A stretch of 37,097 bases of DNA from Bacteroidales bacterium (GTDB lineage Bacteria > Bacteroidota > Bacteroidia > Bacteroidales > UBA932). A model generated the notes under the pieces. That model had not been told where the DNA came from. It was given only the letters and a program-made list of their open reading frames with translations, and searched no databases. Numbering within the stretch: position 1 is the first letter of the stretch; the number at the start of each line of letters is the position of its first letter. Made by a program: the position numbers and the translations under genes. The stretch spans positions 1-37,097 of the forward strand of contig JAGAIM010000008.1 in assembly GCA_017626555.1 (NCBI GenBank), in the 5' to 3' direction. This document shows, piece after piece, positions 13,789 to 31,508 of the stretch.

Positions 13789-13818
13789 TTAAATTAAATC
13801 ATTAAACGTCAGTTGGTT

Positions 13819-14736
13819 ATGAGGCGCAGGTTGGTGATCGTATTGGGCCCCACTGCGGTGGGAAAGACAGACTATAGCATCGAAATGGCGCTCAGGTACG
13901 GGTCGCCGGTGATATCCTGTGATTCGCGTCAGATATATAGGGAGATGTCCATAGGTACCGCCGTACCTTCGCAAGACCAGTTGGCTGCCGTAAAGCATTA
14001 TTTCATACATTCCCATACTGTCACGGATCTTTACACGGCAGGAAAATACGAGGTGGAGGCTCTTGAACTCATCAACAGACTGTTCGCTGAAGGATATGAT
14101 ACTCTTGTAATGGCTGGAGGATCAGGTTTTTATGTAGATGCTCTGGTCAACGGACTTGATGACTTTCCTTCAGCAGACCTTCAGTTGCGCTCCGAACTTA
14201 CTGCTCGCCTCAAGGAGGAGGGTGTTGAGGCCTTGAGGCTGGAACTTAAGGCATTGGATCCGGAGAGTTATGCATCCATAGATATAGCGAACGGACAACG
14301 TGTGGTAAGAGCGCTGGAGGTATGTATTATGTCAGGAAAGCCATTTTCTTCTTTCAAGACTTCATCGCGGAAAGAACGCAATTTCGAGATAGAGAAGATC
14401 GGATTGACCAGGCCGCGTGAGATCCTTTACGACCGGATCAACCGTCGCGTAGTGCAGATGATAGATGACGGTCTGGTGGATGAGGTGCGTTCTTTGACCC
14501 GGTACCGTGATCTGGCTGCACTGAAAACCGTAGGATATAAGGAAATCTTCGACTGGTTCGACTATGAGGCCGGACTTGTTACATCCGAAGGATGGGGACC
14601 TACCGTACCTGGGGACGGACCGGTTACGTCTCTGGACCGCGCCATAGAACTCATTCAGCGCAATACGCGTCATTATGCGAAACGTCAACTTTCCTATTGG
14701 GGACGCGACAAGGATATAAGATGGATCGAACTATAA
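13819..14736 (+). CDS. miaA: tRNA dimethylallyltransferase
   Basis: Adds a dimethylallyl group to A37 of tRNAs that read codons starting with U. About 305 residues, with the P-loop GPTAVGKT near the N-terminus, the motif SCDSRQIYREMSIGTA, the AGGSGFYVDAL segment and the NGQRVVRALEV segment that contacts tRNA. The open frame starts at 13813 (MVMRRRLVIVLG). Either ATG 13813 or ATG 13819 is possible, and 13819 is chosen because the next residues RRRLVIVLG form the family's first strand. It converges with recQ across a large palindrome at 14735-14838. Confidence 0.94.
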   Translation: MRRRLVIVLGPTAVGKTDYSIEMALRYGSPVISCDSRQIYREMSIGTAVPSQDQLAAVKHYFIHSHTVTDLYTAGKYEVEALELINRLFAEGYDTLVMAGGSGFYVDALVNGLDDFPSADLQLRSELTARLKEEGVEALRLELKALDPESYASIDIANGQRVVRALEVCIMSGKPFSSFKTSSRKERNFEIEKIGLTRPREILYDRINRRVVQMIDDGLVDEVRSLTRYRDLAALKTVGYKEIFDWFDYEAGLVTSEGWGPTVPGDGPVTSLDRAIELIQRNTRHYAKRQLSYWGRDKDIRWIEL

Positions 14737-14838
14737 AACACAGGAAGACTGCTATATAAGTGACGTGCCACCCACGGCTAGGGGGTGCCCGAACCTGTGA
14801 GGGCGGGGGTCACTGGTATAGCAGTCTTCCGGTGTTTT
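14735..14838. repeat. Large palindromic element between miaA and recQ (core-sharing family, copy 1)
   Basis: Outer arms 14735-14756 and 14817-14838 pair over 22 bp with one mismatch. An inner stem pairs AGTGAC (14759-14764) with GTCACT (14809-14814). The interior (14768-14809, read on the - strand) is a GC-rich 42-base core starting CCCCCGCC and containing GGCACCCCCTA. This core is 35/42 identical to 24882-24923 inside murB. The element sits exactly between the stop codons of convergent genes and can act as a terminator for both, since the outer arms end in A4/T4. Confidence 0.8.
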
Positions 14839-14842
14839 ATGA

Positions 14843-17044
14843 TCAATTGGCTACTTCACAGAGGAACTTGATTCGAACGAGTCTCACTTCATACTCGTCA
14901 TAGTCCGACCCCAGATCGGCCATCGCATCCTCAAGAGACTCGGACTCTGCTTCGTCGTGGAAATAATCGTATATCTCATCAACGATATCATCGTCCAGTG
15001 ACTGACTTATATAATAATCCAGATTGAGTTTGGTTCCGGATAATACGATTGCTTCGATTTCGCTGAGAAGTTCTTCCATATCCATACCCTTGGCATCTGC
15101 GATGTCTTCTAGAGGAAGCCTTCTGTCAATGCTCTGGATGATGAATACCTTGTTTACAGATTTGTTTACGATGGACTTCATAACGAAGTCGTCAGGACGT
15201 TCTATCTCATTCTCTTCCACATACTTGGCAATGAGTTCTATGAACTCCTTACCAAACTTGCGGGCCTTGCCTTCTCCTACTCCCTGACAATTCTTCAGTT
15301 CGTCGTAGGTCATAGGATACATTATCGACATATCTTCCAATGAAGGATCTCCGAATATGACCCAAGGTTGGAGTCTCTTCTTTTTTGCCACATCCCTTCT
15401 CAGATCCTTGAGCATAGTAAGCAGTTGCTCGTCTCCTCCTCCGCCACCTCTTGCACCTGCCCCGGATATAGCATCGTCATCATCGTCTTCTCCTTCAGCA
15501 AACTCCCTGTCTTCTGTCAGCATAAGGGCGTATGGTTTTTCGTAGAATTCCATACCTTGCTTTGTGACGGAAATGAGACCGTATGACTCGATGTCCTTGT
15601 GAAGAAGATGCAATACCATACCTTGATGTATGACGGCGCACCAGAATTTCGCAGAATGATCCTTTCCTGCTCCGAAAAGTTCCAGTTTATCGTGCTTGTA
15701 TGACTTGATGATCGAATTCATCTCTCCTGCAAGTATGTTCGCGAGGTGCTCGATCTTGAAATGTTCAGGTAGCGTCCGGATGAGTTCGATTACCATTGCC
15801 ATTTCCTCGCGTCCGTCAAACTGTCTCTTCGGATGCAGGCAGTTGTCGCAGGCTCCGCAGTTTTCAATCTGGTAATCTTCTCCGAAATAATTGAGCAGCA
15901 GTTTCCTGCGGCAGGAATTGGACTCGGCGTATGCCACGGTCTCCATAAGCAGTTGCCTGCCTATTTCCTGTTCGGCGACAGGCTTGCCCTGCATAAACTT
16001 CTCCAGTTTCTGTATGTCCTTGTAACTGTAGAAAGTGATGCACTGGCCTTCTTTACCATCACGTCCGGCACGTCCTGTCTCCTGGTAGTAGCCTTCGATG
16101 CTCTTAGGAATATCGTAATGTATGACGAAGCGGACGTCCGGCTTGTCAATGCCCATTCCGAATGCAATGGTGGCTACTATGATATCGACGTCCTCCATCA
16201 GGAACTTGTCCTGATTCTCCGCACGCGTCCTGGCATCAAGTCCTGCGTGATATGGTGCTGCCTTTATTCCGTTGATATTCAGCAGTTCTGCAAGTTCTTC
16301 CACCTTCTTGCGGCTCAGGCAATATATGATTCCCGATTTGCCTTGATTCTGCCTTATGTATTTTATTATGTCTCTTTTAGGGTCGGATTTGTCCCTTATC
16401 TCATAATAGAGATTAGGCCTGTTGAATGATGACTTGAACACAGTTGCGTCAGTCATTCCGAGATTCTTTATGATGTCGCTCTGCACTTTCGGAGTCGCAG
16501 TAGCCGTGAGTGCTATGATCGGTGCAATGCCGATTTCTTCAATTATCGTCCGTATGCGTCTGTACTCCGGTCTGAAGTCGTGTCCCCACTCCGATATGCA
16601 ATGAGCCTCATCGACAGCATAGAAGGAAATCTTTATCTCCTTGAGCATAGCAACGTTTTCAGCCTTGGTCAAAGACTCAGGAGCCACATACAGAAGTTTT
16701 GTGGCGCCGGACATAAGGTCGTTCCTGACCTCGTTTATCTGCGCTTTGTTCAACGAGGAGTTCAGAAAGTGAGCGATGCCATCGTTGCCGGCTACAAAGC
16801 CTCTTATGGCATCCACCTGATTCTTCATAAGCGCAATCAATGGTGAGATCACAATGGCAGTACCTTCCATAACGAGGGCAGGCAACTGGTAGCACATAGA
16901 CTTACCGCCGCCTGTAGGCATTAGGACGAAGGCATTGTTGCCATCTACAAGATGCCTGATGATGCGTTCCTGATCTGCTTTGAAGGAATCAAATCCGAAA
17001 AATTCCTTAAGTTTGGCGTGTAACATTGCGGAATCACTTGACAT
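14843..17044 (-). CDS. recQ: ATP-dependent DNA helicase RecQ
   Basis: 3'-5' superfamily 2 helicase in recombination and fork repair. The 733 residues hold Walker A TGGGKS (44-49), the DEAH box (145-148) with the aromatic-rich loop after it, motif VI QETGRAGRDG (321-330), and a zinc site C378, C396, C399, C402. A winged helix follows. A low-complexity linker rich in Asp and Gly lies at about 525-550, then an HRDC domain (about 560-620) and a C-terminal helix-turn-helix region common in Bacteroidetes RecQ. It is monocistronic, transcribed away from the FKBP gene, and ends at the palindromic element next to miaA. Confidence 0.96.
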   Translation of the reverse strand: MSSDSAMLHAKLKEFFGFDSFKADQERIIRHLVDGNNAFVLMPTGGGKSMCYQLPALVMEGTAIVISPLIALMKNQVDAIRGFVAGNDGIAHFLNSSLNKAQINEVRNDLMSGATKLLYVAPESLTKAENVAMLKEIKISFYAVDEAHCISEWGHDFRPEYRRIRTIIEEIGIAPIIALTATATPKVQSDIIKNLGMTDATVFKSSFNRPNLYYEIRDKSDPKRDIIKYIRQNQGKSGIIYCLSRKKVEELAELLNINGIKAAPYHAGLDARTRAENQDKFLMEDVDIIVATIAFGMGIDKPDVRFVIHYDIPKSIEGYYQETGRAGRDGKEGQCITFYSYKDIQKLEKFMQGKPVAEQEIGRQLLMETVAYAESNSCRRKLLLNYFGEDYQIENCGACDNCLHPKRQFDGREEMAMVIELIRTLPEHFKIEHLANILAGEMNSIIKSYKHDKLELFGAGKDHSAKFWCAVIHQGMVLHLLHKDIESYGLISVTKQGMEFYEKPYALMLTEDREFAEGEDDDDDAISGAGARGGGGGDEQLLTMLKDLRRDVAKKKRLQPWVIFGDPSLEDMSIMYPMTYDELKNCQGVGEGKARKFGKEFIELIAKYVEENEIERPDDFVMKSIVNKSVNKVFIIQSIDRRLPLEDIADAKGMDMEELLSEIEAIVLSGTKLNLDYYISQSLDDDIVDEIYDYFHDEAESESLEDAMADLGSDYDEYEVRLVRIKFLCEVAN

Positions 17045-17175
17045 AAGCCGACATTTTGGATTATAAAATTATAAACTTTTTCTTGAAAATTCAAAACTTT
17101 TTTGGTGAAGACCGACTTTGTGAACTTCCATTTCTCAGGTTTTATTATATATGTAGGGCAATGATGTAACAAAAA

Positions 17176-17206
17176 TGTGGCTTTGTCCAAAAAATCATTA
17201 CCTTTG
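17176..17206 (+). promoter_or_regulatory. Promoter of the FKBP gene and DUF3127 gene
   Basis: A perfect -7 box TACCTTTG at 17199-17206, with TGTG at 17176-17179 as an imperfect -33 box (19-base spacer). Transcription would start near 17212, leaving a roughly 40-base AT-rich leader before the ATG at 17253. The 17045-17175 part of the recQ/FKBP divergent spacer is AT-rich with nothing else recognised. Confidence 0.6.
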
Positions 17207-17252
17207 CAAGTTGTATTGACAATTATTTATAAACAAATAAAATTTTAAGACA

Positions 17253-18002
17253 ATGAAGGCAATCAAATTTTTCGCAATCGCGGCTTGTGCAGCAGCACTC
17301 GCAGTATCTTGCAACTCCGCTACCAGCGAGGTTGCAGTTGAAGCAGAACTCCCTACAGCAGCGGAGACTGATTCTGTAAGTTACCTCATCGGTATCAATT
17401 TCGGTTCATTCCTCAAGGGCAATAACTTTGCAGAGGAACTTGGCGAACTCAATATGTCAGAGATCAAGAAGGGTATGCAGGATTTCCTTGCTGCAGAGGG
17501 TACACCATACGATCCTGAATTCGGTGAGCAGTTCAAGATCAACCCTAACGAGATGCAGCGTCTTCTCAATGGCTTCATCTCAAAGAAGCAGTCTTACAAG
17601 GCAGCAAAGAATCTTGCAGAGGGTAAGGCATTCCTTGCTAAGAACGCTCTCAAGGAGAATGTTGACACAACTGCAAGCGGTCTTCAATATACAATCGTAG
17701 CAGAGGGCGCAGCCGAGAAGGTGGCTCCACAGGATACTGTATGGGTAAACTACAAGGGTACTCTCCTTGACGGAACAGTTTTCGATGAGAACGACTCTAC
17801 TCAGTTCGTGGCTAACCGCGTAATCAAGGGTTGGACAGAGGGTCTTGGTCTTCTCGGTGAGGGTGGAAAAGCAACTCTCTACATCCCTGCAAACCTTGCA
17901 TACGGTGAAAGAGGCAACCGCTCTATCGAGCCTAACTCAACTCTCATCTTTGATGTTGAGATCCTCAAGGTAGGCAAGTTCGTTCCTAAGGAAGACAAGT
18001 AA
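17253..18002 (+). CDS. FKBP-type peptidyl-prolyl isomerase lipoprotein
   Basis: Predicted envelope folding factor of the Mip/FkpA kind. Of 249 residues, 1-20 are a lipoprotein signal ending in the lipobox LAVSC (Cys20). About 35-125 form the helical FKBP N-terminal dimerisation domain, and 140-245 the FK506-binding isomerase domain. Isomerase motifs seen are VWVNYKGTLLDGTVFDEN, VIKGWTEGLGLLGEGGKATLYIPANLAYG (over about 190-220) and STLIFDVEILKV. It has its own promoter and is followed 2 bases later by the DUF3127 gene, so the two are co-transcribed. The link between the two functions is unclear. Confidence 0.92.
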   Translation: MKAIKFFAIAACAAALAVSCNSATSEVAVEAELPTAAETDSVSYLIGINFGSFLKGNNFAEELGELNMSEIKKGMQDFLAAEGTPYDPEFGEQFKINPNEMQRLLNGFISKKQSYKAAKNLAEGKAFLAKNALKENVDTTASGLQYTIVAEGAAEKVAPQDTVWVNYKGTLLDGTVFDENDSTQFVANRVIKGWTEGLGLLGEGGKATLYIPANLAYGERGNRSIEPNSTLIFDVEILKVGKFVPKEDK

Positions 18003-18004
18003 TA

Positions 18005-18472
18005 ATGGCTCTTGAACTTGAGGGCAGAATCGCCCGCAAACTCAATGTCCAGACCGGAACTTCGGCAAGAGGTGCTTGGGCAAAGCAGGAGTTCATCTTT
18101 GAATACCAGGAAGGTAACTTCCCATCTCAGGTTTGTATGAATGTCTGGGGTGACGATAAGGTGAAGGAACTCGACAAGTATCAGGTCGGTGACAAGGTTA
18201 AGGTGTCCTTCAACATCAGCAGCCGTGAGTACAACGGACGCTGGTACACTGATGTGAGAGCGTGGAGGATAGAACCTGCCGGTGCATCTCAGCCTGATTA
18301 TGCAACCGGAGCCGTTGCTGGTGGAGCCGGCTATATGGGAACTCAGACCCCGTCTCCGTCCCAGGGTTATAACTATACTCAGTCAGCAGGAGCCTATTCT
18401 GCTCCGACCGGCGCACCGATGCCGTCAGCAGATGATATGAGTTCTCCTGTAGAGGACGATCTTCCGTTCTAA
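18005..18472 (+). CDS. DUF3127 protein with SSB-like acidic C-terminus
   Basis: A 155-residue protein. Residues 1-95 match the DUF3127 family: beta-rich, with motifs TSARGAWAKQEFIFEYQ, KYQVGDKVKVSFNISSREYNGRWY (over about 58-80) and DVRAWRIEP. Strand spacing and aromatic residues suggest an OB fold. Residues about 96-145 are a Gly/Ser/Gln/Tyr/Ala-rich linker, and the protein ends DDMSSPVEDDLPF. This linker-plus-acidic-tip layout, with a final Asp-Asp-x-Pro-Phe, is the hallmark of single-stranded DNA-binding protein SSB, whose tip docks RecQ, PriA and others. An SSB-like role is inferred and not shown. The gene lies about 1 kb from recQ and shares the FKBP promoter. Confidence 0.82.
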   Translation: MALELEGRIARKLNVQTGTSARGAWAKQEFIFEYQEGNFPSQVCMNVWGDDKVKELDKYQVGDKVKVSFNISSREYNGRWYTDVRAWRIEPAGASQPDYATGAVAGGAGYMGTQTPSPSQGYNYTQSAGAYSAPTGAPMPSADDMSSPVEDDLPF

Positions 18473-18510
18473 GATGTTGTAGCGGATTTTCAGAAATCTG
18501 CACATTTATA

Positions 18511-18560
18511 AGCAAAACCGCTTGCAATACCTTGAAAATGGTGTTACAAGCGGTTTTGCT
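18511..18560 (+). terminator. Terminator hairpin after the DUF3127 gene
   Basis: A perfect 14-bp stem (18511-18524 with 18547-18560) including AAAACCGCTTG/CAAGCGGTTTT. The 22-base interior can pair further (TACC with GGTG). It lies 39 bases after the DUF3127 stop. Further down the same spacer, CTGCGTGC (18612-18619) pairs with GCACGCAG (18633-18640). The rest of 18561-18683 is GC-rich, hairpin-prone and without a recognisable gene. Confidence 0.75.
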
Positions 18561-18683
18561 GTGCTGTGTGCTGCAGAGGGTAATGCCCTGATGCTCAATA
18601 ACATATAGCTACTGCGTGCCGCACTATGGGGAGCACGCAGGGATGGTAAGTGCTTGGATGGTAGCGGGTTAGGCTATGCTTGG

Positions 18684-19511
18684 CTATAGCGGCAACTGGA
18701 CGAGCCGGCGCTGCTCATAGTGTGCGGTCCAGCGGAAGCCAAGTGATTTCAAGAGTTCTCCGTGAAAGGTGAAGCCGGCACCTACTCTGGTCGGCTCGTG
18801 GGAATCGGAACCGAGGCTGATGATTTCTCCGCCCATTTCACGGTATCTGAGGAGGACATTGTGATCAAGTTCTACGATACGGCCGCGGTGCCCTTCATAA
18901 CTCTTGGTGTTGATCTCAAGGGCTTTGCCTTCGTTGATGAGGTAGCGGAACATTTCGTCGAAGATGTCGCTGAAATCGCGGTAGAGGATGGAGGTGACGG
19001 GATAGGGAGCGTAGCGGACGATGTAGTCGTAATGTCCCATAATGTCGAAGTCGCCGAGCCAGGTCATCTCCCTGTAGATTGTCTCAAGATAGCCTCCGTA
19101 GGCCTGTTTCCAGTCTTTTCCTTCGTAGTATCCGCCATAGTAGGGGTCGGTCTGTTCGATGTAGTGAACCGAAGCGAGTACTTGATCAAATGAATTGCTG
19201 CTGAGGACGTTGCGGATCTGCTCGTGACATTCTTCGTACATTCCTATCTCTATGCCCTTAAGAATCTTGAGATTGTCTCCGAGGATATTCTGTACACGGC
19301 TGATTTCAGCCTGCTGCTCCGGAACATTGAAATATTCCTTTTGCACATCTTCGAATTCAGCCTTCAACGGTGGTACATAATGGTCACAGTGGTCACTGAA
19401 GCAGATACCTCCAAGGCCGGCCGACATTGCAGCACGGGCGCTGGCCTCCACGGTGGTCATTTTACCGTCGAAAGAAAATTGGCTGTGATTATGATTATCG
19501 AACAAAACCAT
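18684..19511 (-). CDS. PHP-domain phosphatase, histidinol-phosphatase (HisJ/HisK) type
   Basis: A metal-dependent phosphatase of the PHP superfamily, about 275 residues. The metal-binding motifs are visible in order: DNHNHSQFSFDGKMT near the N-terminus, FSDHCDHY, a Glu in KGIEIG, HYIEQTDPY, GHYDYIVRY, and GSDSHEP near the C-terminus. Closest in kind are bacterial histidinol phosphatases, but no his genes are nearby, so the substrate is uncertain. The frame is open back to ATG 19535. However, a - strand -7 box (TATTTTTG, 19542-19535) covers that ATG, so transcription would begin about 19528. The ATG at 19511, starting MVLFDNHNHS, is therefore preferred. Confidence 0.82.
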   Translation of the reverse strand: MVLFDNHNHSQFSFDGKMTTVEASARAAMSAGLGGICFSDHCDHYVPPLKAEFEDVQKEYFNVPEQQAEISRVQNILGDNLKILKGIEIGMYEECHEQIRNVLSSNSFDQVLASVHYIEQTDPYYGGYYEGKDWKQAYGGYLETIYREMTWLGDFDIMGHYDYIVRYAPYPVTSILYRDFSDIFDEMFRYLINEGKALEINTKSYEGHRGRIVELDHNVLLRYREMGGEIISLGSDSHEPTRVGAGFTFHGELLKSLGFRWTAHYEQRRLVQLPL

Positions 19512-19534
19512 CTTATAAACCTCAGAAACGGCCA

Positions 19535-19562
19535 CAAAAATACTAAAAAATTCCTATTTTTG
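19535..19562. promoter_or_regulatory. Back-to-back -7 boxes between the PHP and DUF308 genes
   Basis: TATTTTTG occurs on the + strand at 19555-19562 and on the - strand at 19542-19535, pointing away from each other. Both match the Bacteroidetes TAnnTTTG -7 consensus, but neither has a clear TTTG at the -33 distance. The + strand box would serve the DUF308-dnaG-metG run. Confidence 0.4.
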
Positions 19563-19660
19563 CATTTTATGTGCAATGGTATGCTTCAGATGGAGGGTTA
19601 TGTTCTTCGGACAGTATGCCTTCAGTGAAGTGTTATGTCCAATATTTAAATGAAAGACAA

Positions 19661-20293
19661 ATGTTTACGTTTGGTTATAAAAGCAAGGTAAATGGTCCTA
19701 TGAGGGCTTTCATAGCCCTGGTGATAGGCATTATGATGGTGGTCTCACCTGCAAATGCTCTGACGACTGTAGTAAAGATCATTGCGGCCTTTATGCTCGC
19801 TTCCGGAGTAGTTTCTCTTGTGGTGGGTCTTAAGGACAAGGAAAAAGGTTCTCTTCCATTGATGTCATTCAATGCATTGGTTGACCTTGTTCTGGGTCTG
19901 CTGATGTTCGTGTTCCCTGGAGTGATAGCCAAGTTTATGATATATCTTATCGGCTTTGTGCTTCTTGGTTTCGGTATTGTGCAGATTCTCGCTCTTTTCA
20001 GTGCCAGACGTATCGTCGGAATGGGCTTTGGAGCATTCATTCTTCCGATCATCGTTACATTGGTGGGAGGTTTTATTCTCTTCAATCCGTTTGCCGAGTC
20101 TGTGATGACTATGATTGCAGGTTCTGCTTTGATTGTGTATGGAGCATCCGAACTCTTCTCGTCCTGGAAGATGAAGAAGGCTATCGATGAGTACGAAATC
20201 CATCAGGCGCCAAAGCAGGAGCAGTCTTCGCAGCCGGGAAATCCGCTGTCCTCTGTTAAGGATGTTGAATACGAAAAGGTTGATGAACAGTAA
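19661..20293 (+). CDS. DUF308 / HdeD family membrane protein
   Basis: About 210 residues with six predicted membrane helices arranged as three hairpins: AFIALVIGIMMVVSP, VVKIIAAFMLASGVVSLVVG, ALVDLVLGLLMFVFPG, YLIGFVLLGFGIVQILALF, GFGAFILPIIVTLVGGFILF and MTMIAGSALIVYGASELF. This is the pattern of HdeD/DUF308 proteins, some of which are linked to acid resistance in E. coli. A polar tail of about 40 residues follows. The frame opens at 19571, but the first 30 residues lack family character and ATG 19661 is preferred. It ends 3 bases before dnaG, so it is probably the first gene of that transcript. Confidence 0.8.
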   Translation: MFTFGYKSKVNGPMRAFIALVIGIMMVVSPANALTTVVKIIAAFMLASGVVSLVVGLKDKEKGSLPLMSFNALVDLVLGLLMFVFPGVIAKFMIYLIGFVLLGFGIVQILALFSARRIVGMGFGAFILPIIVTLVGGFILFNPFAESVMTMIAGSALIVYGASELFSSWKMKKAIDEYEIHQAPKQEQSSQPGNPLSSVKDVEYEKVDEQ

Positions 20294-20296
20294 GTT

Positions 20297-22354
20297 ATGA
20301 TACCTCAGGAGACGGTAAACAAGATTCTCGATGCGGCTCAGATCGTAGATGTGATAGGGGACTTCGTGACATTGAAGAAGCGAGGTGCCAACCATATCGC
20401 GTGCTGTCCGTTCCATAACGAGAAGACTCCGTCGTTCTCTGTTTCCGCGTCAAAGGGAATATATAAATGCTTTGGTTGCGGAAAGTCCGGAACGGCAGTG
20501 GGTTTCGTTATGGAGCACGAGAATATGTCTTTTACCGAGGCTCTGAAGTATCTAGCGAAGAAATATCATATAGAGGTCGTAGAGAAAGAAGAGACTGCTG
20601 AGGAAATTGCGCAGAGGCAGAGACACGAGAGTCTTTTGCTTGTGTCGGAATTCGCGGATAAGTTTTTCCAGGAAAGCCTTCATACACCGGAAGGTCAGTC
20701 CATAGCCTGGCAGTATTTCAAAAGTCGTGGTCTTGAGGATGAGACGATCAGAAAGTTCGGCCTGGGCTGGGCGCCTCTCAGCAGGAAAGCATTGTCTGAT
20801 GCGGCGCGTGCGGCCGGTTACAAGGAAGAGTTTCTTGTTGAATCCGGTGTAAGCATAAAATATGACGACGGCAGGCTTGTTGACCGTTTTTATGACCGTG
20901 TAATGTTCCCGGTTCATTCTGTGAGCGGACGTGTCATAGCCTTCGGAGGCCGTACACTCAAGACAGACAAGAGTGTTGCAAAATATGTGAATTCTCCCGA
21001 AAGCGAGATATATGTGAAGAGCAGGTCGCTCTATGGAATATATTTCGCAAAGAATGAGATTTCCCGTCAGGACAGGTGTATCCTTGTGGAGGGATATCTG
21101 GATGTCCTGTCGATGCATCAACTCGGAATCACCAATGTGGTGGCTTCCAGCGGTACATCGCTGACTGTGGACCAGATCAGACTCATCAGGAAGTTCACCA
21201 ATAACATAACCATCATCTATGATGGAGACGGTGCCGGTATAAAGGCTGCCCTCAGGGGTATAGGCCTGGTGCTGAAGGAAGGAATGAATGTCAAGGTCGT
21301 GCTTCTTCCTGATGGTCAGGATCCCGATGACTTTTCTAAGAAACATAGTCTGGAGGAGGTAAAGGACTATATATTCCGGAATGAACAGGATTTCATAAAT
21401 TTCAAGACGGAACTTCTGCTTGGCGAGGCCGGAGGCGATCCATTGAAAAAGGCGAACCTCATCAATGATATAGCGGATACGATAGCACTGATTCCGGATG
21501 CCGTGATAAGAGCCGTTTATGTACGTAGCAGTGCCGACCGTTTCGAGATAGATGAGAAGATACTGGCAGACAGGGTAAGCCGCACCCGGACCGATATGCT
21601 CCTGGCCGATGAAAAGCAGAAGGAGCGTGAAAGGCAGCGCGCTGCCGGAACGAACAGGGCTGTGCCTCAGCCGGATATGCCTTCCGGTGATGATGTGCCG
21701 CTTCCTTCGCCGGATGATTTCTATCAGGACGGCTATGCTGAGTCTGTTACTGATAATCCTCCTGTAACCCCTCCTGACGTTTATGAAGGTCCGATAGTGA
21801 TCAATGAGCCTTATCTTGCTCCTTGTGAGAGGGAACTTCTTGGATTCATCCTGGAGGAAGGATGCTCGGATCTTAAGTTCGACGTCGATTCTAAATATTA
21901 TATTGAGGGAGAGACTGTCAATGTTGCAGAGTTTATTGACGGGATTTTGGCCGATGATGAGACCGAATTTATAAATCGTTCATTCAGAAGGGTTTATGAT
22001 GAATATTTCCGAATGTATGATGAGGGGCTTTCCCAGCAGCAGATCCAGTCACGTCTCCTTAACAGTATGGATGTGGAAATTTCTGCCGTGGCGCGCGAAC
22101 TCCTCATCGAGAAATATCAGATCACGGTCAAGAGTTACGAGCAGTCGATGACCTCCACCTCTACCAAACTTGTGCAGTTCATCCCCAAAGCCCTTCTGGC
22201 CTATCAATGCAAGAAGGTCGAACTTATTCTCCGTGATCTCACTGCGCGTCTGGCATCAGAGACAGATCCCGAACGTCAGATCGGACTTCTCTCCGAAATC
22301 GGTGATTACAATAAAGCCCGCACAAGGCTCAATAATGAATTAGGAAGAGTATAA
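20297..22354 (+). CDS. dnaG: DNA primase
   Basis: Makes RNA primers for DNA replication. The 685 residues begin with the zinc-ribbon domain (CCPFH at 36-40 and CFGCG at 58-62, with EKTPSFSVS between). The primase core follows, with [21 protein letters not shown] and the TOPRIM motifs [12 protein letters not shown] and [14 protein letters not shown] Pro/Asp-rich linker covers about 440-510, and a helical C-terminal region that would bind the DnaB helicase follows. It is not in the rpsU-dnaG-rpoD order of many bacteria but lies between a DUF308 gene (3-base gap) and metG (8-base gap). Confidence 0.97.
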
Positions 22355-22362
22355 ATAATATA

Positions 22363-24534
22363 ATGACAATGGAAAAGAAATTCAACAGAACGCTTGTGAC
22401 CTGCGCGCTTCCGTACGCGAACGGTCCTGTCCACATCGGCCATCTTGCCGGTGTTTATGTGCCTGCAGATATCTATGTGAGGTACCTCAGGATGAGAGGA
22501 GAGGATGTCCTTTATGTCTGCGGCTCGGATGAGCACGGAGTGCCTATCACCATCAAGGCTCAGAAGGAGGGATGTACTCCTCAGGACATTGTGGACAGGT
22601 ATCACAAGATCATAAAGAATTCATTTACAGGACTTGGAATCAATTTCGACATCTATTCCAGGACATCTTCAAAGACCCATCACAAGAATGCGGCTGACTA
22701 TTTCCGCAAACTTTATGATGAGGGCAAGTTCATCGAGAAGGTGAGCGAGCAGTATTATGATGAAGAGACCAAGACATTCCTTGCGGACAGATATATTACC
22801 GGAACCTGCCCACGTTGTGGCGCGGAGGGAGCATACGGCGACCAGTGCGAGAAGTGCGGTGCTACACTCAGTCCGGACGAACTGATCAATCCGAAGTCTG
22901 CTCTCAGCGGCGGCGAACTCGTGAAGAAGGAGACCAAGCATTGGTATCTGCCTCTGGATCAGTATGAGGGATGGCTTTCAGAATGGATTCTTGAAGGACA
23001 CAAGGAGTGGAGGAGCAATGTTTACGGCCAATGCAAGAGTTGGATCGACGGCGGTCTTCAGCCACGTGCGGTGAGCCGTGACCTGAACTGGGGCGTTCCT
23101 GTACCGGTGGAAGGATCTGACGGAAAGGTGCTCTATGTGTGGTTCGATGCTCCTATCGGTTATATCTCCAACACCCAGGAACTTCTGCCTCAGAGTTGGG
23201 AGAAATGGTGGAAGAGCGAGGATACAAAACTTGTTCATTTCATCGGAAAAGACAATATCGTTTTCCATTGCATCGTGTTCCCGTCTATGCTTAAGGCTGA
23301 CGGAAGTTATATCCTTCCGGACAATGTGCCGGCAAACGAGTTCCTTAATCTCGAGGGAGACAAGATTTCGACATCACGCGGATGGGCTGTATGGCTTCAC
23401 GAATATCTGGAGCAGTTCCCTGGCAAGGAGGATGTGCTTCGTTATGTGCTCACTGCCAATGCTCCTGAGACAAAGGATAATGATTTCTCCTGGAAGGATT
23501 TCCAGGCTCGCAACAATAGCGAACTCGTTGCCATCCTCGGCAATTTCGTGAACCGTGCAGTGGTGCTTACACATAAATATTTTGAAGGGAAGGTACCGGC
23601 TGATCTCAAGCCGGAGGCGATTGATGCCGAGACGCTTGCTCAGATCCAGCCTCTCAAGGAGGAAATGCAGAGATACCTTGACGGATATAAGTTCCGCGAG
23701 GCTCTCAAGGAGGCAATGAACATTGCCCGTCTTGGCAACAAATATCTGACTGATACAGAGCCTTGGAAGGTCGCTAAGACCGATATGGACAGAACTGCGT
23801 CGATTCTGAATGTTTCTCTCCAGATATGTGCATCGCTTGCGATCGCATTCGAGCCATTCCTTCCGTTCTCGGCAGAGAAACTGCGCGGTATCCTGAATGT
23901 GGGCATCGCAGCCGGAAGCGATCATCGTGCCGGTGAGGAAGGATCTGTAAGCGAGAATATTTATACTGCTTCCGAGGGGGCGGCTCTTCATACAGGTGTT
24001 GCATACGAGGGTCTCACTCTTTCTTGGGACGATCTCGGCAAGGCCGTTCTTCTTCCTGCCGGTCATCAATTGAATCCGGCGGAACTTCTTTTTGCAAAGA
24101 TTGAGGATGAGACAGTGGATGCTCAGATCGCCCGTCTGAATGATATCCGTGCAGAGCGTGAGGCTGCGGCAAAGGCTGCCGAGGCTGCTGTGGTGACTCC
24201 TCAGAAGGAGGAATGCACATTCGATGATTTTCAGAAGATGGATATCAGAACCGCTACAGTTCTTGAGGCTGAGCGTGTTCCAAAGACTGACAAACTGCTG
24301 AAACTTACTATAGATACAGGCATTGACAAGAGAGTCATTGTTTCCGGTATTGCAGAGCAGTATTCTCCTGAGGAGATGGTGGGCAAGCAGATATGTATCC
24401 TTGCAAACCTTGCTCCGCGCAAGATCCGTGGCATCGAGTCGAAGGGTATGATCCTGATGGCTCGTCAGAACGATGGTAAGATGCGTTTCGTTACGCCTGC
24501 GGAGACTCTTTGCAATGGTGCGGAGATAGGATAG
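22363..24534 (+). CDS. metG: Methionyl-tRNA synthetase
   Basis: Charges tRNA-Met. The 723 residues contain the HIGH motif as HIGH in [13 protein letters not shown], a zinc-binding insertion with CPRCGAEG and CEKCGATL, the KMSKS-equivalent DKISTSRG, and a C-terminal tRNA-binding (EMAP/Trbp111-like) domain from about residue 610 ([20 protein letters not shown]). It seems roughly 40 residues longer than the Bacteroides enzymes I remember (about 680). The extra part is a polar stretch at about 515-555, after LRGILNVG. The start could be ATG 22363 or ATG 22369. The gene follows dnaG by 8 bases. A long antisense frame on the - strand is a shadow. Confidence 0.97.
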
Positions 24535-24628
24535 CATTATTTAATTTTCAATGACTTCTATCCTTTTAAATCAGTACATTGATAAGGAGAGATTCTCCTG
24601 CGGCTACACTATATCCGGTAGATAAGTT

Positions 24629-25888
24629 ATGATAAAGACGGAGTATTATAAGGATCTGACGAAGATGAACACCTTCGGGATGAGGGTGAAGGCGCGCTGT
24701 TTCATTGAGTATGATTCGGTGGCTGATCTTGTGGATATCGAGTTCGATGAACTGGCAAGGCCTGTGCTGCATATAGGTGGCGGCAGCAATCTGCTTTTCA
24801 CCGATGATTTCAAGGGTACGGTCCTGCATTCGAAGATAGATTTCATTGAAATTCTTGACGAGTGCCATCGTATTCCGGAGGCCCCCGCCTTCGCAAGCTC
24901 AGGCACCCCCTACCCGGGGGTGGGAAAATGCCTCCTTCATACAAATGGCACATCGTCAGCAGATTTCAGCCAATCAAGCAAGGTGCTGGTATCAGTCGGT
25001 GCGGGAGTGGTCTTCGATGATTTCTGTGAATGGGCGGCGAAGGAAGGCCTATGGGGAGTGGAGAATCTGTCGTATATTCCGGGAGAAGTCGGTGCGTCGG
25101 CTGTGCAGAATATCGGTGCGTACGGGGTTGAGGTGAAGGATGTCATCCGTAAGGTTTATTGCTATGATACTGTTGAGGAAGAGTTCGTTCATTTCGATGT
25201 GGAGGAATGCGGATATGGCTACCGTGATTCGATGTTCAAGAGGCCTGAGGTCAAGGGTAGGTATATCGTGACTCACGTGGTGTTTGCTCTTTCTCGCGCT
25301 CCGCAGCCGAAATTGGAATACGGCCATCTGAAGGAAGCGGTTGCAGACTGTCATTTCGAGCGGAGCGGTAGCGGAGACGAGAAATCTCTTACACCAGCAA
25401 TGATCCGCAAAGTGATCATCAAGATCCGCAAGGAGAAACTTCCGGAGCCGTCGGTGAAGGGTAGTGCGGGAAGTTTCTTCAAGAATCCTGTGGTGCCGAT
25501 GGAGCAGTTCCTGAAGATTGAGGCTGCGGCTAAAGCCGAGCACGGTTCCGATTACAAGGTTCCTCATTATGTCTTAGGTGGTTATGAAAATGTGACATCT
25601 GCCTCACCTGCCATCTCGAATGACCCGTCTGTCATTTCGAGCGAGGATGCAGTCCGTGTCGAGAAATCTCCGTCAGTCAAGATCCCGGCAGCCTGGATGA
25701 TAGAGCAGTGTGGCTGGAAGGGAAAGCGCAGCGGTGGAGCGGCCGTCTGGGACAAGCAGCCTCTGGTGATTGTGAATCATAGCGGAGAGGCGTATCCGGA
25801 AGAGATTGTCGGATTGGAAAAACGTATCATTTCTTCAGTCAAGACCAAGTTTGGAGTAGAACTCCATCCTGAGGTGGAACATATATAA
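24629..25888 (+). CDS. murB: UDP-N-acetylenolpyruvoylglucosamine reductase with three repeat-derived insertions
   Basis: FAD/NADPH enzyme that makes UDP-MurNAc for peptidoglycan. FAD-binding motifs GGGSNLLF (50-57) and PGEVGASAVQNIGAYG (151-166) are present, as are Arg199 (YRDSMFK), the catalytic Ser in GSAGSFFKNP (about 282) and Glu415 in HPEVE. It has 419 residues against about 335-345 in relatives. Three inserts account for the excess: about 79-117 (palindromic element, DNA about 24848-24967), 241-253 (25349-25387) and about 321-349 (including 25630-25669). All keep the frame and contain no stop codon. Removing them leaves about 338 residues, the normal size. All catalytic motifs survive, so the protein is probably active, with the inserts as surface loops. 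It is followed 15 bases later by a lipoprotein gene and then murA. Confidence 0.95.
   Translation: MIKTEYYKDLTKMNTFGMRVKARCFIEYDSVADLVDIEFDELARPVLHIGGGSNLLFTDDFKGTVLHSKIDFIEILDECHRIPEAPAFASSGTPYPGVGKCLLHTNGTSSADFSQSSKVLVSVGAGVVFDDFCEWAAKEGLWGVENLSYIPGEVGASAVQNIGAYGVEVKDVIRKVYCYDTVEEEFVHFDVEECGYGYRDSMFKRPEVKGRYIVTHVVFALSRAPQPKLEYGHLKEAVADCHFERSGSGDEKSLTPAMIRKVIIKIRKEKLPEPSVKGSAGSFFKNPVVPMEQFLKIEAAAKAEHGSDYKVPHYVLGGYENVTSASPAISNDPSVISSEDAVRVEKSPSVKIPAAWMIEQCGWKGKRSGGAAVWDKQPLVIVNHSGEAYPEEIVGLEKRIISSVKTKFGVELHPEVEHI
24848..24967 (+). repeat. Palindromic element inside murB (core-sharing family, copy 2)
   Basis: Nested inverted repeats occupy about 120 bases (40 codons). Outer arms are 24848-24868 and 24945-24967: GTGCCAT pairs with ATGGCAC, then GACGA with TCGTC after a 1-base bulge, then GAAAT with ATTTC. 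A second stem pairs GGAGGC (24877-24882) with GCCTCC (24930-24935), and a central hairpin pairs CACCCCC (24904-24910) with GGGGGTG (24916-24922). The core 24882-24923 is 35/42 identical to the - strand of 14768-14809. The left arm encodes normal MurB residues (EILDE), so the true insertion point may be inside the left arm. Confidence 0.75.
25349..25387 (+). repeat. Short repeat TGTCATTTCGAGCG...GAGAAATCT in murB (copy A)
   Basis: A 39-base (13-codon) sequence with head TGTCATTTCGAGCG and tail GACGAGAAATCT, read in frame as residues 241-253 of MurB (CHFERSGSGDEKS). Its ends match the copies at 25630-25669 and 34722-34757, and its length is a multiple of three. Confidence 0.75.
25609..25669 (+). 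repeat. Short repeat, one partial and one full copy in murB (copy B)
   Basis: A partial head TGCCATCTCGAATGA (25609-25623) is followed by a full unit at 25630-25669 with head TGTCATTTCGAGCGAGG and tail GTCGAGAAATCT. Both are read in frame within the third MurB insertion (about residues 321-349). The arrangement of a degenerate unit then a full unit resembles the tandem pair at 34695-34757. Confidence 0.7.
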
Positions 25889-31436: not shown

Positions 31437-31508
31437 GCATAGCCTGAGGCTTGCAGAGCGAAGCATATTCATACGCTTCTGCGAAGCGAGGCGAGCCTCA
31501 GGCTATGC
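31437..31508. repeat. Large hairpin between the pullulanase and alpha-amylase genes
   Basis: A perfect 15-bp stem (31437-31451 with 31494-31508, GCATAGCCTGAGGCT) encloses 42 bases that pair again imperfectly (GCAGAGCGAAGC with GCTTCTGC). It has no T-run after it. It may stop or slow transcription, protect the upstream mRNA, or be a mobile palindromic element. It forms the left edge of the AGCT-rich two-gene block. Confidence 0.75.

Follow-up and report, generated by a model that had tools for sequence, protein, structure and literature searches.

The Rickettsia palindromic elements (RPE) are palindromes that occur in frame within protein genes as well as between genes, and an RPE family keeps its whole palindrome conserved; the repetitive extragenic palindromes (REP) of the REP/RAYT systems are small palindromes dispersed over the genome. 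Here we describe an element comparable to both, found in two copies in a stretch of 37,097 nucleotides (hereafter the window; contig JAGAIM010000008.1 of assembly GCA_017626555.1, Bacteroidales bacterium), one copy between the convergent genes miaA and recQ and the other inside murB. Like RPE, this element is inserted in frame into protein genes such as murB (15 of the 131 copies lie inside predicted open reading frames (ORFs)), and like REP it is small and dispersed, with Y1-family genes present in the genus. RPE conserve the entire palindrome, whereas here the core alone is conserved, except in one subfamily with conserved arms. We favor, with rather better than even confidence, the interpretation that this is a non-autonomous dispersed palindrome, in which the core serves as the nucleus for fold-back template switching and the arms are written from host DNA by this process.

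Two further groups of described sequences come close. The CGTC-tagged REPs, among which are the rickettsial RPE-4 and RPE-6, are, like our element, short palindromes in intergenic and intragenic positions; they are reported in Bacteroidetes among other phyla, and no dedicated transposase is reported for them (PMC3733652). They carry conserved stems of 8-9 bp with loops of 4-5 nt, whereas the present core forms a three-way junction and is enclosed by much longer, locus-specific arms. The set of features that marks a CGTC REP (conserved 8-9 bp stem, 4-5 nt loop, CGTC or TGTC tag, CCA-like tail) was not found in our element; the motif GGCAYGTC is present but lies within paired structure, and the stems and loops are unlike those of a CGTC REP. 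Repeats resembling CGTC/TGTC REPs (CGTCATTGCGAG... and TGTCATTCTGAGCG...) take the same gene-end and murB places in relatives. The second group comprises hairpins formed by template switching in rRNA and microRNA genes, in which the process is reported to create and maintain perfect stems, to produce paired changes of several bases and to cause inversions of loops (PMC8794818). Reverse-complement copies giving perfect stems, paired multi-base changes and loop inversions were likewise observed here, the difference being that the present case has a spreading core of fixed sequence and is bacterial and located at gene ends. Long perfect inverted repeats within protein genes, as here, have also been described for the mitochondria of Nematomorpha, which belong to another domain of life (PMC6649704).

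The preliminary description, made from the window sequence alone, had noticed that the two copies match without gaps at 35 of 42 positions, and this was borne out by our comparison: the next best ungapped match of the copy 42-mer in the whole window, both strands included, reached 24 of 42, and a repeat search lengthened the match between the copies to 53 nt at 79%. Each core is indeed enclosed by inverted arms, and the arms of copy 1 are unrelated in sequence to those of copy 2. On both strands copy 1 folded far better than shuffled sequences (z -9.0 and -10.6); for copy 2 the advantage over shuffles was weak (z -1.95 and -2.57, with 9 and 4 of 200 shuffles equally good). Using a covariance model built from 39 copies, both window copies included, we obtained matches within the window at these two places and none else (E up to 1). 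The 42-bp core proposed at the outset is conserved, but the conserved part proved to be longer, extending from TTCC and a 6-bp stem to GGCAYGTC and the opposite side of this stem. The names of murB, miaA and recQ were confirmed with NCBIfam (Table 1).

Read inward, the outer arms, which are unique, are followed by a small internal loop in which TTCC faces TYCA and then by the 6-bp stem. A second, short internal loop and 2 bp lead on to a three-way junction, from which one variable hairpin (GCC...GGC) and one invariant-looking hairpin (ACCCCC TAGCC GGGGGT) extend. In a MAFFT alignment of the 39 copies, which was not fitted to this structure, 88.6% of the cells were paired against 66.7% in shuffles, both sides had changed in 346 cells against 121.6, and the covariation score was 0.529 against 0.135; the signal was lost when the partners were shifted by 1-3 columns, and further pair types in this alignment showed no excess over shuffles (77 versus 81). 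Changes on both sides were detected for all 17 outer pairs, 4 of the 6 inner-stem pairs and 2 of the 5 pairs of the variable hairpin, and for none of the second junction hairpin, which hardly varies. The paired arms thus show changes on both sides, one of the observations that would favor the preliminary idea. Including the inner stem, the arms measure 34 nt on average (range 1-68), and the identity among 19 copies of the own genome falls to background level about 15-20 nt outside the core.

The expectation of many dispersed copies was confirmed, with 19 exact occurrences of the 11-mer GGCACCCCCTA in the own genome (reversed control, 0) and at least 27 matches of the covariance model. Genus-wide model scoring, run with stricter filters and on up to 27 candidates per genome, identified the element in 33 of 151 genomes of the genus. 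In a sample of 198 genomes of the order, scored on up to 20 candidates each, the genus had one further representative and a different genus of the family had one; the own genome was matched and none of the 197 others. A scan of named genomes for a 26-base pattern gave at least 80 loci. Those listed all come from metagenome-assembled genomes labelled Bacteroidales, Bacteroidia or Bacteroidaceae; many are from ruminant guts and one is named Candidatus Cryptobacteroides avicola, and the named matches point to the genus Candidatus Cryptobacteroides. One pattern match outside the genus (L020, genome G048) lacked the rest of the core and was taken as chance. The pair involving locus L061 was left out of the presence/absence comparison: its genome, searched with the flanks of the G024 copies, gave three short weak matches and holds a single copy, for which reasons the L061 contig was probably binned with the wrong genome.

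The mobility suspected from the two window copies is supported by the occurrence of both orientations, by flips of the core at one locus, and by empty alleles at orthologous places. We compared five orthologous empty sites, judged as clean by eye, and both arms and core were absent from all five: the miaA-recQ place in G323, a close relative in which the stop codons of both genes overlap and at most 3 bp could have been duplicated; L243, counterpart of the filled L232; the murB of the own genome (G000), counterpart of the G026 copy L028; L123, counterpart of the place filled in L001, L021, L060, L136 and L141; and L001/L024, counterpart of the L123 copy. Two of the five have direct repeats on either side of the insert, CGGTTGC (7 bp, exact) in murB and TATTAGGATC/TATTTGGATC (10 bp with one mismatch) at L243/L232, and at the two L123-related sites none were seen by eye. 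Such short repeats hint at staggered or template-switch insertion.

The arms were found to change at one and the same place. Among 45 orthologous pairs with the core in the same orientation, the arms were different in 30, alignable in 8 and identical in 7, and in 11 additional orthologous pairs the core was flipped (115 copies, compared ungapped, so that one-indel differences such as L013/L085 were scored as different). One copy, L060, consists of the left half of an L136-like copy and the right half of an L021-like copy, and its arms are unpaired because the halves come from two different copies. L004 and L053, from two genomes, each hold a complete element with the 3' half of another behind it, and the two are exchanged between these genomes. 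When mismatches within the outer arms of 111 copies were counted in sense orientation, we found 2293 Watson-Crick pairs, 68 A.C mismatches, 27 G.T and 70 of other kinds. The arms are near-perfect at the DNA level and lack the tolerance of G.U that a sense RNA under selection would permit. That A.C exceeds G.T is also a strand asymmetry, in that an A.C would be a G.U on the opposite strand.

The origin of such arms is indicated most clearly by the place behind htpG. Of 26 htpG loci, 19 encode a protein that ends with AYLK, and in 8 the gene closes with the identical 14 nt, CTTATCTGAAATAA (two of the eight are a single genome, G425, that is listed twice). G425 carries the element behind htpG, and the 14 nt return in the right arm as an exact reverse complement, TTATTTCAGATAAG. 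The product of the convergent gene folE ends with LI in G425; among 23 loci that bear folE, the remaining 21 have LIR, LIK or LIKQ at this end, and by this comparison the arm of G425 overwrites the end of folE. At the same htpG-folE place, G359 (L311) carries a core-less palindrome whose 18-nt arms, set apart by a 1-nt loop, take in 9 nt of htpG, and G421 (L329) carries a flipped core with an inner arm, CCGGCAGATAT, in common with G425. Likewise, the right arm of L120 repeats in inverted form 10 nt from a gene end for which the protein end is conserved in L044 and L156, and an arm of L029 is an inverted copy of 6 nt from the gene upstream of murB. In the own genome, L244 (C146:24450-25050) consists of a 19-nt native gene end, GG, and its exact reverse complement, with no main core. 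One arm as the inverted copy of older native DNA, the hallmark of template switching, is thus found in htpG (14 nt), L120 (10 nt) and L029 (6 nt), and also in the core-less L244 and L311; the sequences show arms that are exact inverted copies of conserved coding sequence.

As a more general count, paired arms reach 41 arm-to-gene boundaries, of which 11 continue for at least 5 nt and 6 for at least 8 nt into the gene, against expectations of about 0.04 and 0.0006 at 1/4 per base. For this count 133 rows were reduced to 111 copies by leaving out copies with flanks shorter than 60 nt, repeated arms and the conserved-arm subfamily. Gene calls for this count, as for arm lengths, placement and T-runs, were our own ORF picks by codon score and not annotation.

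Template switching as the process, and the core as its trigger, are what we infer from these arms. The core, some 55 nt long and made up of the inner 6-bp stem, the pair of hairpins and the three-way junction, would spread to sites immediately 3' of stop codons and, with the reading frame kept, into gene loops. Having settled there, it would serve as a hairpin nucleus on which the nascent strand folds back during replication, and the folded strand would copy the flank of one side into the other side. Such fold-back copying would write or lengthen the arms as inverted host DNA, keep them perfect, and flip the core between them, and deletion afterwards might sometimes leave core-less palindromes. 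The stronger proposal, that the element carries nothing but the three-way-junction core, all long arms being made per site by fold-back copying of host DNA, coding sequence included, and these private arms being rewritten, extended and flipped, is put forward tentatively, as somewhat short of an even chance.

Several observations weigh against this interpretation by core-nucleated copying. The outer arms of L003, L007 and L010 have about 11-12 inner bp in common, and therefore part of the arm travels. In the few orthologous arms that could be aligned, 11 changes are one-sided and 7 compensated; therefore the arms also decay, and simple compensatory drift is not the main story. The direct repeats at two of the five empty sites resemble the trace of a transposase, and there the arms lie inside the insert. 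The remnants with one arm or partial arms (L131, L255 and L257) can be deletions between repeats of 2-4 bp, which at L255 is supported by the related filled locus L154, and the nearest genomes are about 80-95% alike at the flanks. The null of 1/4 per base is too strict for A+T-rich stop codons, and some gene ends may derive from the arm where the gene reads into it, as on the folE side of L138. This strictness nevertheless does not account for the conserved cases.

If the interpretation is true, it adds a novel route to the inverted repeats of mobile elements, one by which small palindromes could spread without carrying terminal repeats. Template switching is regarded as a process that makes and repairs hairpins, but its traces are usually single events, whereas here well over a hundred replicate sites with one conserved core are available in related genomes, allowing comparison of the creation, replacement, flipping and loss of arms, and the origin of perfect inverted repeats in bacteria becomes directly testable. 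At such sites the ends of genes are overwritten, and an essential gene of the cell wall acquires extra in-frame segments.

Movement of a finished palindrome by a transposase acting in trans (Y1/RAYT or other), with later divergence of the arms, would be in line with the dispersed copies, the empty alleles and the direct repeats at two of them, as well as with the subfamily of conserved arms (20 copies in 19 loci). Y1-family genes were detected in 8 of 10 genomes searched, but the core was present in none of the 16 Y1 regions examined, among 24 Y1 matches listed, and Y1 genes were also found in three genomes without a pattern match (G003, G016 and G033). The link to a TnpA/REP-type transposase that the preliminary description had raised is therefore not supported. 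A copied palindrome would not give arms that are unrelated between loci beyond about 15-20 nt from the core, nor does it account for host coding sequence inside arms, and we regard this explanation as unlikely. The pairing of the element with RAYT in the manner of REP was rejected on the same count of Y1 regions, and the GTAG tag was absent from the consensus of the 39 copies. The features of a miniature inverted-repeat transposable element (MITE) of a DDE transposase were likewise not found: the arms are not shared between loci and there is no target duplication of fixed length (at the empty sites without the two flanking repeats above, 3 bp or less, or none seen). Because the defining features of CGTC REP, GTAG REP/RAYT and MITE with shared terminal repeats are lacking, no membership in a named family is assigned, and the element is best taken as a probable small mobile palindrome of REP/RPE-like type outside any of them. 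No Rfam family matched the core, in accord with the initial failure to recognize it: at gathering thresholds 5S rRNA was the only match in the whole window, and by E-value copy 1 gave two matches (E 0.89 and 2.4) far under the gathering scores. No published description of the repeat was found in the open-access literature searched.

A structured RNA or a bidirectional terminator at gene ends, with arm pairing kept by selection on the transcript, was considered from the placement of the copies, which begin immediately 3' of stop codons. Of 131 distinct copies placed, 51 were between convergent and 45 between codirectional genes, 2 between divergent genes, 15 inside predicted ORFs (in sense in 13 cases) and 18 at the edge of a contig or locus. 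The paired changes agree with selection on RNA, and so does a bias toward sense, 28 versus 6 for codirectional copies and 10 versus 1 inside genes, in a set of 112 placed copies that leaves out repeated arms and the conserved-arm subfamily. For 85 of these, genes are present on both sides, and a T-run (at least 5 T within 8 nt behind the hairpin) was found in 6 of the 85, with a mean T content of 2.25 of 8 against a background of 2.08. With T content at background the copies are not ordinary intrinsic terminators, in agreement with the earlier view that this is no simple terminator. The functional RNA module suggested in the same place is unsupported because sense-strand wobble pairs are not enriched, the G.T mismatches of the outer arms being rarer than A.C; copies within coding genes, relatives without the element and the lack of an Rfam match also speak against selection on a transcript, which we consider improbable. 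Least probable of all is that the core enters the loop of pre-existing long hairpins, with arms older than the core, as might be read from L257, in which the outer arms of L009 form a palindrome that lacks a loop, and from the core-less L244 and L311, since five empty alleles hold no such palindrome, and loss of the core is favored at L255 and the htpG place because other species hold a core with related arms there (L154 and L329).

Table 1. Positions in the window of the two copies and of their host and neighboring genes.
Feature	Position	Strand	Basis or remark
Copy 1, whole palindrome between miaA and recQ	14733..14840	- (core in sense)	fold; model match 14739-14835, 89.2 bits
Copy 1, outer arm A and distal half of inner 6-bp stem	14733..14764		inverted-repeat search, 91% complementary over 32 nt
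Copy 1, outer arm B and other half of inner 6-bp stem	14809..14840		same inverted repeat as arm A
Copy 1, conserved core (42-mer)	14768..14809	-	35/42 to copy 2; included in the 39-copy alignment
Copy 2, palindrome in frame inside murB	24857..24957	+	model match 24856-24957, 60.2 bits; fold
Copy 2, arms	left 24857-24882, right 24930-24957	+	part of murB palindrome
Copy 2, conserved core	24882..24923	+	35/42 to copy 1; variant end GGTGGGAAAATG replacing GGTGGCACGTC
murB (UDP-N-acetylmuramate dehydrogenase), host of copy 2	24629..25888	+	TIGR00179 and NF000755 above cut-offs
miaA, upstream gene	13813..14736	+	TIGR00174; own-genome stop codon falls within arm
recQ, convergent neighbor	14843..17044	-	TIGR01389

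The murB gene of G147 (L170) is shorter by 37 residues in the stretch that corresponds to copy 2 (46 versus 83). Across the genus (30 loci, L158-L187), in-frame inserts in murB were seen by eye at three places, after FIEILDE, after GHLKEAV and after VPHYDL, with stop-to-stop frames ranging from 352 to 468 aa; among the inserts are translations such as CHSERSEES and RHCEE..., which stand singly or in tandem, as well as four different core types.

The members of the conserved-arm subfamily (GGGCGGCACC...) include L052, L069, L097, L115, L139 and L153, several of them at contig ends and amid other repeats. Further core types follow a like plan, with a conserved G+C-rich multi-hairpin core within long unique arms: core B in L161, L131, L126 and L251, core D in L202 and L247, and another, CCCCTCCC...CCCCCTACCCGGGGGTGGGAAAATG, in L166 and L246. 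These other cores stand sometimes at a gene end where a relative carries the main core. Within the window, a separate hairpin at 31437-31508 has perfect arms of 15 bp and a structured loop of 42 nt (TGCAGAGCGAAGC...).

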